This document shows, in pieces, positions 49,684 to 56,191 of a stretch of 64,000 nucleotides of DNA. The position numbers and the translations under genes are program-made. The notes under the pieces are model-generated. The model was not told the origin of the DNA and did not search any database. It worked only from the letters and a program-made list of their open reading frames with translations. Position 1 is the first letter of the stretch; each line of letters opens with the position of its first letter. This DNA comes from Singulisphaera sp. GP187 (GTDB lineage Bacteria > Planctomycetota > Planctomycetia > Gemmatales > Gemmataceae), in the NCBI GenBank assembly GCA_945905925.1, contig CAMDQN010000015.1, forward strand, positions 1-64,000. The letters are read 5' to 3'.

Positions 49684-50952
49684 TCACTTCCCCTGATTCC
49701 AGTAGATGCGCACGTTAAGCGTCGCGCGGCCACAAGCGATGATGTCGGGCTTGCCGTCGCCGTCGAGGTCGGCCACGGTGAGGTCTTCGACGGCCACGCC
49801 GCCATCGTCGAGAATCGTTCGCTCCCACTTCGCACCCTTGCCGTCGGTGCATTTGTACACGCGAACCCCGCGACGCTCTTTGAACACGTCGCCCATCTTC
49901 GGGTTCGGGTCGTCGCGCACGCCGATGACGAGTTCGTCCGCGCCGTCGCCGTCAAGGTCCGCGAACCACACGCCATGGCCCCACCGCAGTTGCTCGTCGA
50001 TGACGTGCCGCTCCCAGAGTTTCTCACCCGCCTTCGGCGGCGTGTACGTCACCACCTGGTTGCCGTGCCACGGCTCGATGGTCGCGATGACCCGCGCACT
50101 GTCTACCGTTCCGACCTCACCGACGCGCCCCACCTTGATTTCGCTCGCGCCGCGGTTGCCCTTCGGGTTGGCCTGGTTTCCCTCACCAATCTTGGTGGTA
50201 GTCCACTTGTCGTTGGCTCCGCGAATCATGTGAACGCCGTCGTAGCTCGTGACCAAGATGTCGGTCGCTGTCCGGCCCGGTACGCGACGGTATCCGTACA
50301 GTGCGAAGTTGTGGCACACGTTCAGTTCCTCCGACAGCACCTGCATCTTCCAGTTCTCTTTCTTCTCCGGCTCCTTCGCGGGCACCTTCAGCGCGACCAC
50401 GCGCACCGGTTTGCCGTCGGTCCACAGACCTTTCGCGCTCGACCCGCGACCCATCAAGGGCACGTGAACGATCTCCGGTTTGCCGTCGCCATCAATGTCG
50501 AAACAGCGGACGCGGTGAACCGTCGGCTCGTCGCACGGTAGTTCGTGCATCGTCCATTCGTCGGTGACGACCTTGCCGCGCTTCAACCAGACAAGTTGCG
50601 CCGCGTTCGCGGTGTCGAACGGTTTCCACGCCGCACCGACGACCAACTCCGGTAAGCCGTCACCGTCGATGTCGATGGCCGCGATGCAGACGTTGTCCGG
50701 CCGCGTCTTGCCGTCGAGGATGACGTGCTTCTTCCACGCGCCGTCTGCTTTACCGGGGTTCTGATACCACACGATCTTGTGCTGATCGACAACAACGATG
50801 TCGAGCTTCTTGTCGCCGTCGATGTCCGCGGTGATGACCGCATAGCCGATCTTCAGCCCGGTGTCGATCTCTTGCGTTTTGAATTTGGGCAAGTCGGCCG
50901 CGAATAGAGGGAGTGCGAACAGCGCAACGAGCGCGGAGAAGAGGTAGCGCAT
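49684..50952 (-). CDS. Secreted FG-GAP/VCBS repeat beta-propeller protein
   Basis: Exported protein of 422 residues. A signal peptide (1-18) is followed by propeller blades with calcium-binding DxDGDGxxD loops: DIDGDKKLDIV, DIDGDGLPELV, DIDGDGKPEIV, DLDGDGADELV and DLDGDGKPDII. These resemble integrin-like FG-GAP repeats that often bind glycans or other proteins outside the cell. No enzyme domain is attached. The gene appears monocistronic; the 245-bp gap on its 5' side holds a palindrome and the promoters for the divergent channel operon. Confidence 0.88.
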   Translation of the reverse strand: MRYLFSALVALFALPLFAADLPKFKTQEIDTGLKIGYAVITADIDGDKKLDIVVVDQHKIVWYQNPGKADGAWKKHVILDGKTRPDNVCIAAIDIDGDGLPELVVGAAWKPFDTANAAQLVWLKRGKVVTDEWTMHELPCDEPTVHRVRCFDIDGDGKPEIVHVPLMGRGSSAKGLWTDGKPVRVVALKVPAKEPEKKENWKMQVLSEELNVCHNFALYGYRRVPGRTATDILVTSYDGVHMIRGANDKWTTTKIGEGNQANPKGNRGASEIKVGRVGEVGTVDSARVIATIEPWHGNQVVTYTPPKAGEKLWERHVIDEQLRWGHGVWFADLDGDGADELVIGVRDDPNPKMGDVFKERRGVRVYKCTDGKGAKWERTILDDGGVAVEDLTVADLDGDGKPDIIACGRATLNVRIYWNQGK

Positions 50953-51197: not shown

Positions 51198-51986
51198 ATG
51201 TCGATACCCACGTCTCACCGCCCGGCGCGCGAGTGGCTCTTGCTCGTGTTGGCGTTGGTGCTCGTCGCGGGGTTGATCGCCCCGCTGTGGCAGCTCACCG
51301 GCAGCCCCGAATCGCGCGAAGAACTCGCGGCCCGGTGGACGCCGGAACGTTTGGCCCGGTTGTTCCTCGGTTTCGAGCAGGTCTTGTGCTACGTTTGCGC
51401 CGTGTGGGCGGCCCTCATTCTGCAAAGCCGCTATCGCGAGGTGTTGGGTCAGCGCCGCGCGTTCGGGATGGAACTTTTGCCGACCGACGAGGGCGCACGC
51501 ATTCTGCCAGAAGACGCCCGCCCGCTCACGCGGAAAGTAGAGCAAGTTACCGCGGGGCGGCCCTTTGTTCTCGCGAACATGATCAGGCTCGGTCTGGGGA
51601 AGTTCGCGGTAAGCAAGTCCGCGACCGACGTGGCGGAAGTGGTCCGCAACCAAGCGGACGTGGAGTTGTCGCGGTTGGTCACGGGGATGTCCACGGTGCA
51701 TTACCTCGCGTGGGCGATTCCGGCGATCGGGTTCGTCGGCACGGTTCGCGGCCTCGGCGGCGCGTTCGGCGTGAACGACCCCGACATCGTAGAGTTCACG
51801 CGACAGGCGAAGGACCAACTGAAGATCGCGTTCGACTGCACGCTCGTGGCGCTCGTGTTGAGCCTGGGGCTGATGTACTTCGTCCACGCGGTGCAGCGTG
51901 CGGAGGAAACGCTGGTCACGGACGCGCAGCAGTATTGTCAGGAACACTTGCTGTTGCGGCTGTATGATCCGTCCCGCGAAGCGTGA
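51198..51986 (+). CDS. MotA/TolQ/ExbB-type ion channel protein
   Basis: Inner-membrane protein of 262 residues. Helices lie at about 13-32 (WLLLVLALVLVAGLIAPLW), 57-77, 166-186 and 210-235. The third helix carries IPAIGFVGTVRGLGGAF, the signature of the MotA/TolQ/ExbB family, whose members use proton flow to drive work in the envelope. Between helices 2 and 3 is a long cytoplasmic loop, as in TolQ. Its family partner (ExbD/TolR/MotB) is normally next door; here the third gene has a matching single helix with a membrane aspartate. The TTG directly upstream is an alternative start. Confidence 0.83.
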   Translation: MSIPTSHRPAREWLLLVLALVLVAGLIAPLWQLTGSPESREELAARWTPERLARLFLGFEQVLCYVCAVWAALILQSRYREVLGQRRAFGMELLPTDEGARILPEDARPLTRKVEQVTAGRPFVLANMIRLGLGKFAVSKSATDVAEVVRNQADVELSRLVTGMSTVHYLAWAIPAIGFVGTVRGLGGAFGVNDPDIVEFTRQAKDQLKIAFDCTLVALVLSLGLMYFVHAVQRAEETLVTDAQQYCQEHLLLRLYDPSREA

Positions 51987-52086
51987 GTGCGAGTGAGAAA
52001 AAGACAGAGGAAGTGAACTGCAGCATTCCGTCTCCCGCTCGCATCGGTTTTTCACACTGTTTTACTCACATTCACACTGCGAAGCC

Positions 52087-53322
52087 ATGCTCTGGTCCCG
52101 TAAGCCAACCCCCGTTCACGATCGCGCGCGAGCGGTCGGCATCGACCTGACCGCGAGCCGCGTTCTCGCGGAAGCGGTCGGCGGGAAGACACACGCGATC
52201 GTCCTCGACGAGCCGGACGCGGAACTGGCGATGTTCATCGCCGGCGACCGGCGCGCGCCCGAAGTCGGGCGCGCCGGGTTCGCGCTGTGCCGCAAGATGC
52301 CGCACGTCGTCTGCTCGAATTTCCTCCCGACCCTCGGTCAGTCGCGCGAGTGGAGAATCGGTCGCCACGCGCTGATCGCGGAAGCCGCGCTGGGCCTCGT
52401 CTTCGAGAAGATTCGCGGGCCGATCGCGAACGAATCGGACGCAATCGCGCTCGCGCTGCCGGCGTACCTCAGCCCGTCGCAGGTGACGCGCGTGGGGATC
52501 ACCGCCGGGCGCGTGAAGTTCCCACTGAAGGGCACCGCGGTCGGCGCGCTGGCGCTCGCCGCTAACCGGGCCGCAACGCTCCTCGCAGGCAAGCCCGCGG
52601 CGCCGGGAGTTGCCGGCGCCGAGTGGGTGGTTCCGCTGCGGCCAGCGTCCGGCGGTCCCGGCGCGGTCGTCGTGATCGACGCGGACGAGTTCGCGAGTTC
52701 TGCCGTGCTCGTTTCCGTCGAGAACGACGTGGTTCGCGTGATCGGTTCCGCCGTGTGGCCACGGCTCGCGGTGAAGGTCTGGAAAGACAAACTCCTCGAC
52801 GCCATCGCGGACCGGTGCGTGCGGATGTGCCGGCGCGACCCGCGTGACTCTGCCGACGCGGAACAAATGTTGTTCGAGCAACTCGACGAGGCGTTCGACC
52901 GCGCCCGCGCCGGGCAGCGTATCGGCCTCACGGTCCGCACGGCCCACTGGTTCCAGGACGTGGTCCAACAGCCAGAAGAGTTCGAGACGCAGTGCGCCGC
53001 GCTCGCGCGGCTCGCGGGCGATTCGGTCCGTGACTTCGTGAGCGGCATCGGTCTGGCCGAACCGCCGCGCGCGGTGTGGCTCACGGACGCCGCGGGCCGG
53101 CTGCCCGGCTTCGTGCGTGCCGTACATGGCAACACGCCCGAGGGCACCGCGGTCGAGATCCTGCCGCCGAACGCGGTCGCGATTGCGACGGCGGCGCTGG
53201 TTCCGCGCTGGCTCGCGGGCGACCTGCCCCGTGCGCACCTCGATAGTATGATTCCGCTGGCAAAGGATTCCGCCGCGCCCGCCGAAGCCGCGAAGATGTC
53301 CGTGCCGCGCACCGGTCGCTGA
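52087..53322 (+). CDS. Hsp70/actin-like fold protein of the channel-vWA operon
   Basis: Protein of 411 residues with features of the actin/Hsp70 ATPase fold. The N-terminal phosphate-1-like strand is AVGIDLTASRVLAEAV. A middle SDAIALALPAYLSPSQV resembles the Hsp70 AVITVPAYF motif. A second phosphate loop-like strand is AVVVIDADEFASSAVL and an adenosine-like motif could be WLTDAAGRLPGFVRAV. The usual DLGGGT motif is not intact (DADEF), so nucleotide hydrolysis is uncertain. It lies 100 bp after the channel gene and 54 bp before the vWA gene, all on one strand, so the three are probably one unit. No signal peptide: it should be cytoplasmic. Confidence 0.7.
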   Translation: MLWSRKPTPVHDRARAVGIDLTASRVLAEAVGGKTHAIVLDEPDAELAMFIAGDRRAPEVGRAGFALCRKMPHVVCSNFLPTLGQSREWRIGRHALIAEAALGLVFEKIRGPIANESDAIALALPAYLSPSQVTRVGITAGRVKFPLKGTAVGALALAANRAATLLAGKPAAPGVAGAEWVVPLRPASGGPGAVVVIDADEFASSAVLVSVENDVVRVIGSAVWPRLAVKVWKDKLLDAIADRCVRMCRRDPRDSADAEQMLFEQLDEAFDRARAGQRIGLTVRTAHWFQDVVQQPEEFETQCAALARLAGDSVRDFVSGIGLAEPPRAVWLTDAAGRLPGFVRAVHGNTPEGTAVEILPPNAVAIATAALVPRWLAGDLPRAHLDSMIPLAKDSAAPAEAAKMSVPRTGR

Positions 53323-53333
53323 CGTAGCAGGAG

Positions 53334-53359
53334 AACAGGGGGTTAACACCCCGCTCGCC
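53334..53359. repeat. Variant arm of the GGCGAGCGGGG repeat family
   Basis: AACAGGGGGTTAACACCCCG followed by CTCGCC is a single arm in the 54-bp gap before the vWA gene, immediately upstream of its ribosome-binding site (AGCAGGAGGA). Confidence 0.65.
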
Positions 53360-53376
53360 CAGCAGGAGGAACCCCG

Positions 53377-54975
53377 ATGCGCGTTCGCCACAAACAGCCG
53401 ACGCTGGTCAGCATGTGGATGCTGGACGTGTTCTGCTGCGCGCTCGGCTGCGTCACACTCCTGTTCCTCCTCAACAGCCGCATGGCGATCGACAGCGCAA
53501 AGGCCAACCGCGCCGCGCTGGTCGATTTGGATCACGCCGACAAGAAACTCGCCGCGGCACTGACCTCGCTCGAATTGACCAGACTCAGGCTCACTTCCGA
53601 GGAAACCGAACGCGGGAAGTTGGCTACTTCGCTTTCCGAACTCAAAGACATTCGGCTGAAGCTCACGGACGAATCCCGGGCGCTCGCGGATCAACTCAAA
53701 GTCGTTAGCACCGAGCGCGACGACACCAATCGCAAACTCGAAGTCGCGCGTGCCGAAGCGATCGCAACTCGGACGCTGCTCGACAAAACCAAACTCGACC
53801 TCTCCGCGATCGAGAAGAAGGCCGGCGCGACCGCGAACGAACTCGCCGCCGCGCGTGCCGACATGACCAACGCGGACCTGCTCCTCAAAAAGCGGCAACG
53901 CGACATCGACTCGCTGATGAAGAAAGACGCTACGAGTGCAACGCAACTCGACAGCCTTCAGCGGCTCCTGCTCGCGAAGGACATCGAGCGGCTCGCGTTG
54001 GAGACACGCATGACCGCGACGCGCAAGGAACTCACCGACCTCGACGCGAAGCTCCGCGCCACACAGCGCGACCTCGACGCGCAGTTGGCCGTGGCGCAAG
54101 CGGCAGCGAAGGCCGCAGCCGAAGAGTTGGCGAACGCGAAAGCCGCTGCCAAAGCTGCTGCTGCGGACCTCGCGAACACGAAGGCCGGCGCCGCCAAGAC
54201 TGGCGACGAACTCGGCATCGCCCGCGCGCAGCTCAAAGACCTCAGCAAGAAGATCGACGACGCGAACATCACCATCATCGACCTGCAAGGCGACAAGGCG
54301 AAGCTTGCAGACAAGTACAACAAGTTCCAGAAGGAGAGTGAGGCGCGGTTCGCCGGCATCGCGATGACCGGCAAGAAGGTCGTGTTCCTCGTGGATATGT
54401 CCGGCAGCATGGGCAAGCGTGACCTGAAAACCGTGGACGACACGAAGTGGCCGCTCGTGGTGGAAACCGTTGGCAAGGTGATGCGGAGCATTTCCACGCT
54501 AGAACACTATCAGGTGATCGTGTTTTCGAGTTCGGCGCGGTGGGTGTTCGGTGCCGGCGAGTGGCAGACGTTCGACGGCGAGAAGTCGGTGAACGCGGTG
54601 CGCGCCGCGCTACTCAAGATCAAGCCGGAGAACGACACGAACATGTACGCAGCGTTCGAGAAAGCGTTCGCTCTCCGCGCCACGGATCTGGACACGATGT
54701 ACCTGTTCTCCGACGGCCTCCCGACGAGCGGCCCGGGGCTGACGATCGCGCAGCAGAACGCGAACCCACCGCTCTCGGAGACGGAGCAAGGCGTGATCCT
54801 GGGGAAGTACGTGCGCGACGCACTCGACCGCACCTGGAACCGTCCGGCCGCGGGCCGGTCGCGGGTCCGCATCAACGCGGTCGGGTTCTACTTCGAGAGC
54901 GTGGAGGTCGGCGCGTTCCTCTGGGCGCTGGCCCGCGACAACGACGGCAGTTTCGTGGGGATGTCCAGGCCGTGA
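53377..54975 (+). CDS. Membrane-anchored coiled-coil von Willebrand A protein
   Basis: Protein of 532 residues. It begins with a single membrane helix (MWMLDVFCCALGCVTLLFLL) containing Asp17 near its start, the position of the proton-binding aspartate in ExbD, TolR and MotB. Residues about 40-320 are a long coiled coil rich in Ala, Lys, Glu and Leu. The vWA domain follows, with the MIDAS motif DMSGSMG near 339 and further metal residues in NDTNMY and FSDGLPT. Coil and vWA would sit outside the cytoplasmic membrane. A strong SD (AGGAGG) lies eight bases upstream of the ATG. With the channel gene it suggests an ion-driven machine that moves or senses through a vWA head. This is inference from architecture. 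Confidence 0.8.
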   Translation: MRVRHKQPTLVSMWMLDVFCCALGCVTLLFLLNSRMAIDSAKANRAALVDLDHADKKLAAALTSLELTRLRLTSEETERGKLATSLSELKDIRLKLTDESRALADQLKVVSTERDDTNRKLEVARAEAIATRTLLDKTKLDLSAIEKKAGATANELAAARADMTNADLLLKKRQRDIDSLMKKDATSATQLDSLQRLLLAKDIERLALETRMTATRKELTDLDAKLRATQRDLDAQLAVAQAAAKAAAEELANAKAAAKAAAADLANTKAGAAKTGDELGIARAQLKDLSKKIDDANITIIDLQGDKAKLADKYNKFQKESEARFAGIAMTGKKVVFLVDMSGSMGKRDLKTVDDTKWPLVVETVGKVMRSISTLEHYQVIVFSSSARWVFGAGEWQTFDGEKSVNAVRAALLKIKPENDTNMYAAFEKAFALRATDLDTMYLFSDGLPTSGPGLTIAQQNANPPLSETEQGVILGKYVRDALDRTWNRPAAGRSRVRINAVGFYFESVEVGAFLWALARDNDGSFVGMSRP

Positions 54976-55210
54976 CGCCTAACCTCATACGTTCTTTTTC
55001 ACATTTCCTTCTTGCAACGCGTTTCCCGCAACCTTAAAAAGGAATTGTAGGTTGTCCTCGTCTCGCGACATCTTTCACTCTCCCAGTCATTTGTCTTGCT
55101 GGTCGCGAAATAGCACGCACTCGCGCCTGTGTTGACGGTTCAACCATCTCTGTTCGCGTCAGTAACTGTCGGTTTTCATTACCTCTCATGTGTACGTTCG
55201 AGGGCTCGCG

Positions 55211-56191
55211 ATGTTTTGTTCATCAGTTCGTCGCCACCCGGCGACCTGTCCCCCCAGACACCCGCGTCGCGGGTTCACGCTGATTGAGTTGCTAGTGGTG
55301 ATCGCGATCATCGCGATCCTCATCGGACTGCTCCTGCCCGCCGTGCAGAAGGTCCGCGAGGCCGCCGCACGCACGCAGTGTACCAACAACATGAAGCAGC
55401 AAGGCCTCGCCTTGCACGCGTACCACGACGCCAACGGGGGGTTGCCAGCAGGCAACTCACCATACACGAGCGCATTTCCGTTCGAAGGCTCGTGGACGTG
55501 GATGGGGTACATCCTCCCCTACGTCGAGCAAGAGAACGTCGCAAAGCAAGCCAAGACGTTCGCCAGCAGTGGCGGGTCGAACTGGTATTCGTGGTACAAC
55601 CCGGCTTGCCCGATCAAGATGAAAGCCTTCACTTGCCCGGCGGATGCCCGCGGGCAGCAAGTGTTCGTTGGCGCACCGTACGGGATCGTTGATCAGGCTC
55701 TGACCATGTATCTTGGCAACTCGGGGACGATTTCAGCGGACACCACCACCGCCAACGGTGTCCTGTACCTCGGCTCCAAAACCCATCTCTCCCTCATCAC
55801 CGACGGGACCAGCAACACGATCATGGTCGGCGAGCGCCCACCGAACTCGAACCTGGAGTTCGGCTGGTGGTTCGCCGCGTACGGGTACGACGGCCGGGGC
55901 AACGCCGACTGCGTAATGACCTCGAACGACGTGGCCCTGGCGAACTACTTCATCACCAATTACAACACCGCCCCCAACCTCCCCTGCAATGGGTCGGCGG
56001 CCCAAAAGATCGGGTTGCAGCCAGGCAATCCGAACGTCGGGTGCGACGCAGCTCACTACTGGAGTTTCCACCCAGGTGGCTCGCAGTTCATGATGGCCGA
56101 CGGCTCCGTTCGAATGATTTCTTACAGCGGTAACACCCTCATTCCGGCGCTCTCGACCCGGGCTGGTGGTGAGGTTGCGAACCTCCCCTGA
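55211..56191 (+). CDS. DUF1559 prepilin-like protein
   Basis: Protein of 326 residues of the planctomycete DUF1559 (SBP_bac_10) family. It starts with a type IV prepilin-like signal, [28 protein letters not shown], with the cleavage-site G before FTLIE. The C-terminal end has the H-x9-DG signature ([15 protein letters not shown]). The middle has [22 protein letters not shown] and [13 protein letters not shown]. The family is enormous in Gemmata; its members are exported and possibly assembled like pseudopilins, but function is unknown. A GTG at 55190 would add seven residues. The preceding 235-bp gap after the vWA gene has no visible gene. Two small lipoproteins follow. Confidence 0.93.

Follow-up and report, generated by a model that had tools for sequence, protein, structure and literature searches.

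Flagella, gliding, Ton, Tol and Zorya all rely on ion-driven 5:2 motors. Do three adjacent genes at positions 51198–54975 of a 64,000-nucleotide stretch of the planctomycete Singulisphaera sp. GP187 (contig CAMDQN010000015.1, positions 1 to 64,000; hereafter the window) encode one of these machines or another? The genes, termed g1, g2 and g3, lie on one strand with spacers of 100 bp (g1–g2) and 54 bp (g2–g3), and their open reading frames have exactly the boundaries given in an initial annotation, which had read them as an ion-driven envelope machine. This is still the likeliest reading. We propose, with moderate confidence, that the locus encodes a 5:2 proton motor of the TPH-vWA class (vWA, von Willebrand factor A), with a vWA-tipped stalk and a non-hydrolysing cytoplasmic g2 that would assemble or gate the pentamer. 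The two-part core of channel and vWA protein is a known predicted class because it has been described by Williams-Jones et al. 2025 (PMC12204202), and is therefore not new; the part found in none of the papers searched is the pseudo-Hsp70 middle gene.

The channel, the ion site and the vWA stalk

The g1 protein matches the PF01618 MotA_ExbB profile (E 2.6e-7; 30.9 bits versus a curated cut-off of 22.9), and its hydropathy indicates four transmembrane (TM) helices. The g1 profile found no match among PDB sequences, whereas by fold Foldseek matched the g1 model (pLDDT 87.7) to ExbB, TolQ, ZorA and MotA chains, with a best E-value of only 8e-4. The residues Thr182 and Thr215, located in the last two TM helices, align with T148 and T181 of E. 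coli ExbB, respectively, and both are invariant among 38 sequences from several phyla.

The g3 protein contains one TM helix by hydropathy (residues 14–32), preceded by a basic N terminus. Its Asp17, within MWMLDVFCC, is positioned like the ion site of E. coli ExbD (PFIDVMLVL) and TolR (PLLDVLLVL). This residue is Asp in 38 of 38 members of the planctomycete family of the window's host (sampled as 95 genomes; the host family below), and in all 177 rows that cover the column in a 180-row alignment across phyla, of which three rows begin after it. The surrounding motif is [LIVM]D-x3-C-[GAS]-[LF]-G-[AC]. Because the single TM helix follows a basic N terminus, the coil and vWA domain of g3 should be periplasmic under the positive-inside rule.

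Proline is absent from residues 36–322 of g3, and none of 500 shuffled sequences attained the heptad periodicity of this region; a coil of this size, about 287 residues, would measure roughly 43 nm when fully extended. The region that follows matches VWA_2 (E 9.5e-9), and each of the residues D340, S342, S344, T421 and D446 of its metal ion-dependent adhesion site (MIDAS) is conserved in 37 of 38 relatives. Conservation is less strict in the wide set, in which D340 is found in 156 of 180 rows. The C terminus is also conserved (FVGMSxP). The MotA/TolQ/ExbB-type channel, the helix aspartate at the ExbD/MotB proton-site position, the coiled coil of about 280 residues and the vWA domain with an intact MIDAS, all proposed in the initial annotation, are thus borne out.

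No separate gene for ExbD, TolR or MotB is a recurrent neighbour of the module in the host-family regions, and membership in Tol-Pal or Ton was rejected, as none of ExbD, TolR, TolA and TonB recurs near it. Other ExbB-like genes in the window's genome do have ExbD-like neighbours. In one unusual set (L034:908-2028), an ExbB-like gene is followed by genes for a 197-aa ExbD-like protein (TM stretch FFVPFIDVLILLFG) and a 227-aa TM protein. In addition, many host-family genomes carry a second, more distant ExbB-like family with frames of about 420–690 aa (E 1e-22 to 1e-28; for example, G050:C748:1196-1771).

The Hsp70-like middle gene

The g2 sequence alone has no Pfam or NCBIfam match. By comparison, its family profile matches DnaK chains in PDB (5.2e-16), and its model (pLDDT 82.7, pTM 0.85) matches Hsp70 nucleotide-binding domains (NBDs) over the whole length in Foldseek (1e-16, TM-score 0.70). 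The nucleotide-contacting motifs of Hsp70 have diverged: the phosphate-1 motif GIDLGTT reads GIDLTAS, the phosphate-2 motif DLGGGT reads DADEFAS, and the adenosine motif GGSTR reads TDAAGRLP. All three are eroded in every g2 ortholog compared, both in the host family and in other phyla, while the loop-2 Asp and the RRDPR region are retained within the host family. The substrate-binding domain and lid of Hsp70 are missing from the 411-aa protein, the model of which matches the NBD. A canonical Hsp70 chaperone was rejected on account of the eroded motifs and the missing substrate-binding domain; the profile match, the fold match and the motif loss agree with the actin/Hsp70-like protein with an eroded phosphate loop that was first annotated. 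A phylum-wide search with the g2 profile retrieved mostly ordinary Hsp70s.

Many g2 orthologs carry an FHA domain at the C-terminal end (Pfam 1.2e-15 and 3.5e-11), with the signature SRRHC...GTxLNG. Pfam detects FHA in 8 of 33 wide-set orthologs, and an in-house profile gives 30, the weakest in-house matches being doubtful. Moreover, g1 and g2 are fused into a single 674-aa open frame in one assembly (G001), which suggests that the two proteins are in contact in the cytoplasm. Judged from these sequence features, the FHA domains and the fusion, a role of g2 as a switch or assembly factor is plausible. In two relatives, a gene for another actin-like protein, with an MreB/MamK-type start (MDLGTFKTSVASS), lies some 3 kb away from the module (L050:943-2049).

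Conservation in the host family and distribution beyond it

The module is single-copy and near-universal in the host family. Orthologs of g1 (E <1e-49) are present in 85 of the 95 genomes, relatives of g2 in 81 and orthologs of g3 (E <1e-30) in 82; 87 genomes contain at least one of the three, and none was found in the complete genomes of two genera (G058 and G068). The three genes form a conserved neighbourhood, a check that the initial annotation had called for: gene order was examined in 40 regions around the module, and in all 36 measured contigs with the three genes the order g1–g2–g3 is constant, in several with 4-bp overlaps. The occurrence of at least one ortholog in so many of the genomes is far beyond chance. 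The near-universal, single-copy and vertical presence favours a housekeeping envelope role over defence.

A divergent FG-GAP gene upstream of the module, found in 11 of the 40 regions, is the sole neighbour that recurs. In the window, the flanking genes at 49684-50952 and 55190-56191 encode a divergent FG-GAP-type protein and a prepilin-like protein, neither of which recurs strongly beside the module. One host-family member contains a second g3-like vWA gene downstream (L058:1774-3318), so that vWA pairs occur occasionally here too.

Beyond the host family, scanning a genome collection with g1 gave 80 loci from Verrucomicrobiota, Alpha- and Gammaproteobacteria, deltaproteobacterial lineages, Kiritimatiellota, Acidobacteriota and one Bacteroidota. 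One vWA gene is the rule in the host family, whereas most other phyla, and likewise the anammox planctomycetes, have two: about 66 of the 80 loci have two, and the same core with paired vWA genes occurs in Verrucomicrobiota, Pseudomonadota, Desulfobacterota and others. The spacing from the Asp to the MIDAS has a median of 290 residues in the host family and is about 307 in two other planctomycete families, compared with 157 and 140 residues in the two vWA proteins of other phyla. The g2 gene lies between g1 and the first vWA gene in 36 of the 80 loci, as well as in anammox planctomycetes, so the Hsp70-like middle gene is not planctomycete-specific. One locus scored as lacking g2 (L193) has a 1.5-kb gap at the expected place. 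A further record (L182), titled Klebsiella pneumoniae and derived from a metagenome-assembled genome, is probably mislabelled; its module is unlike anything enterobacterial.

In the g1 tree, the host family forms one clade (support 100/100), and the presence of g2 requires 6–7 changes. The anammox planctomycetes (f45), in two of whose three genomes hydrazine synthase was detected, are placed among Kiritimatiellota and Desulfobacteraceae, and this position among other phyla suggests horizontal transfer. Outside the host family, three further genes precede g1 (Table 1). The anammox loci (L126, L127 and L128) carry a seven-gene version that comprises the lipoprotein, TPR, PEGA/FGE-sulfatase, channel, pseudo-Hsp70-FHA and two vWA genes. 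The upstream genes U1, U2 and U3 (in L140–L219) are probably part of the same machine. None of the 95 host-family genomes has the lipoprotein U3, the positive control being three anammox genomes with scores below 1e-145; U1 and U2 were sought in the host family within the fetched flanks of the module.

Table 1. Features of the module in the window and of the genes that precede g1 in loci outside the host family
Feature	Position	Strand	Basis or frequency
g1, MotA/TolQ/ExbB-type channel subunit; 262 aa, four predicted TM helices	51198..51986	+	PF01618, model, Foldseek, ExbB alignment
g2, pseudo-Hsp70; 411 aa, actin/Hsp70 fold, eroded phosphate and adenosine loops, no FHA in window copy	52087..53322	+	DnaK profile match, model, Foldseek, loop comparison
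Shine-Dalgarno-like AGGAGG ahead of g3	53364..53371	+	Read directly in sequence
g3, TPH-vWA protein; 532 aa, basic N terminus, TM helix 14–32 with Asp17, coil ~36–322, vWA/MIDAS from 335	53377..54975	+	VWA_2, D17 invariance, coil statistics
U3, lipoprotein without Pfam match	upstream of g1		38/80 loci
U2, TM-TPR protein	upstream of g1		43/80 loci
U1, TM protein with PEGA repeats and FGE-sulfatase domain	upstream of g1		49/80 loci

Proposed mechanism, alternatives and relation to known systems

In the mechanism that we favour, five g1 subunits would form a pentamer around two g3 TM helices, and protons would pass Asp17 of g3 and the ring of Thr182/Thr215 of g1, as in ExbBD and TolQR. The g3 helices would then turn or strain the long dimeric coiled coil, which would carry the vWA head across the periplasm, where the MIDAS may bind a ligand on the outer envelope. 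The g2 protein would be a non-hydrolysing Hsp70-fold subunit at the cytoplasmic face of the pentamer, helping to assemble or gate it. In many relatives, the FHA-bearing g2 would read a phosphothreonine signal, and this form is probably phospho-responsive. The motor part of the proposal rests on homology; the 5:2 stoichiometry, rotation, and where g2 sits and what it does are inferred. Several points weigh against the scheme. The choice of protons rather than sodium rests on analogy, the window copy of g2 lacks FHA, and the g1–g2 fusion is known from a single assembly. In addition, g2 is missing in many otherwise similar motors (alphaproteobacteria, Desulfobulbales, Puniceicoccaceae and two other planctomycete families) and is therefore dispensable for the motor in general. 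A broader proposal, to which we give somewhat less than an even chance, is that a dedicated cytoplasmic pseudo-Hsp70-FHA subunit controls a widespread class of trans-envelope proton motors by relaying Ser/Thr-kinase signals to the rotor, and that in the host family this machine has become a minimal one of three genes, near-universal there and with a stalk that could span a wide periplasm.

In a variant of the same motor, g2 would neither signal nor gate but would serve the long coiled-coil vWA protein as its dedicated assembly chaperone or scaffold. Its Hsp70 ancestry, its position next to the vWA gene and the absence of FHA from the window copy would fit such a role, which we nevertheless regard as unlikely: nucleotide loops eroded in every ortholog compared are contrary to a cycling chaperone, the substrate-binding half is missing, relatives with equally long coils (f29 and f57) have no g2, and the FHA of many orthologs points to signalling. 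It is also conceivable, if improbable, that g1 and g3 form a ligand- or strain-gated ion channel or sensor that exerts no force, in which vWA binding outside changes g2 inside. MIDAS-containing vWA domains are ligand binders and the pseudo-Hsp70/FHA side could serve as an output module; yet all residues for ion-driven rotation are kept, and relatives carry lipoprotein, TPR and PEGA genes, the kind of envelope partners that trans-envelope machines usually have. A Zorya-like phage-defence motor was rejected and is very improbable. ZorA is among the fold matches of g1, and PADLOC reports a ZorA profile match, albeit a weak one (E 0.0044), but a near-universal, single-copy module that forms one clade in the host family is unlike patchy defence genes. 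The module shares with ZorAB the motor superfamily and an extended partner; it differs in having vWA in place of the peptidoglycan-binding OmpA domain of ZorB, and in the absence of defence partners, with no ZorC, ZorD or ZorE among the recurring host-family neighbours.

Read as an ion-driven motor, the module may be compared with systems that share its parts. The flagellar stators MotAB and PomAB likewise have four TM helices in the A subunit and an Asp in the B subunit, whereas g3 has no OmpA-type peptidoglycan-binding domain and g1 is closer to Tol/Exb in fold and sequence. ExbBD and TolQR share the channel family, the pore threonines and the TM Asp, and it is TolQ and ExbB that g1 matches best in fold; by comparison, g1 has an extra N-terminal TM helix, g3 has a coil and a vWA domain instead of the small ExbD/TolR domain, and no TonB or TolA adjoins the module. 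The SHLS-type vWA force transducers, which bind the motor side through SHLS/His and keep TolR genes (PMC12204202, Fig. 4a,b), also have an inner-membrane-anchored vWA protein near a TolQ-like gene, while g3 lacks the SHLS motif and the module lacks TolR. The similarity of g2 to the DnaK/Hsp70 NBD lies in its fold and family profile, and the differences lie in the loss of the phosphate-1, phosphate-2 and adenosine motifs and of the substrate-binding domain, and in the FHA of many orthologs.

The closest resemblance is to the predicted TPH-vWA motors, which consist of a TolQ-like pentamer and one or more Asp-bearing vWA proteins without TolR, and in which AF3 models place the Asp inside the Thr ring (PMC12204202, Fig. 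4c,d). Both share a TolQ-like gene, a vWA protein with an N-terminal trans-pore-helix Asp, the Thr ring, tight synteny and the lack of TolR/ExbD; this assignment to the class is based on the features that agree and on homologs from phyla in which the class was described, rather than on comparison with the Idiomarina proteins of that study. The class was described from Proteobacteria and Verrucomicrobia, with no phenotype and with vWA genes predominantly in heterologous pairs, a tendency rather than a requirement. By comparison, the host family, which is not listed for the class, has a single vWA protein, a stalk about twice as long, and a pseudo-Hsp70 gene between channel and vWA that PMC12204202 does not mention. 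The initial annotation had held that no known system combines a vWA-ending partner with an Hsp70-like gene in between. The vWA part of this claim falls to the TPH-vWA class, and the Hsp70 part stands: an Hsp70-like/FHA partner of such motors is unreported in the text (figures aside) of the open-licence PMC literature searched. The near-universal presence in one planctomycete family and the doubled stalk may tie the motor to the unusual planctomycete envelope. The pseudo-Hsp70 partner, often with FHA, offers a testable idea of how TPH-vWA motors are regulated and, together with the three upstream envelope genes found outside the host family, supplies a parts list for this class.

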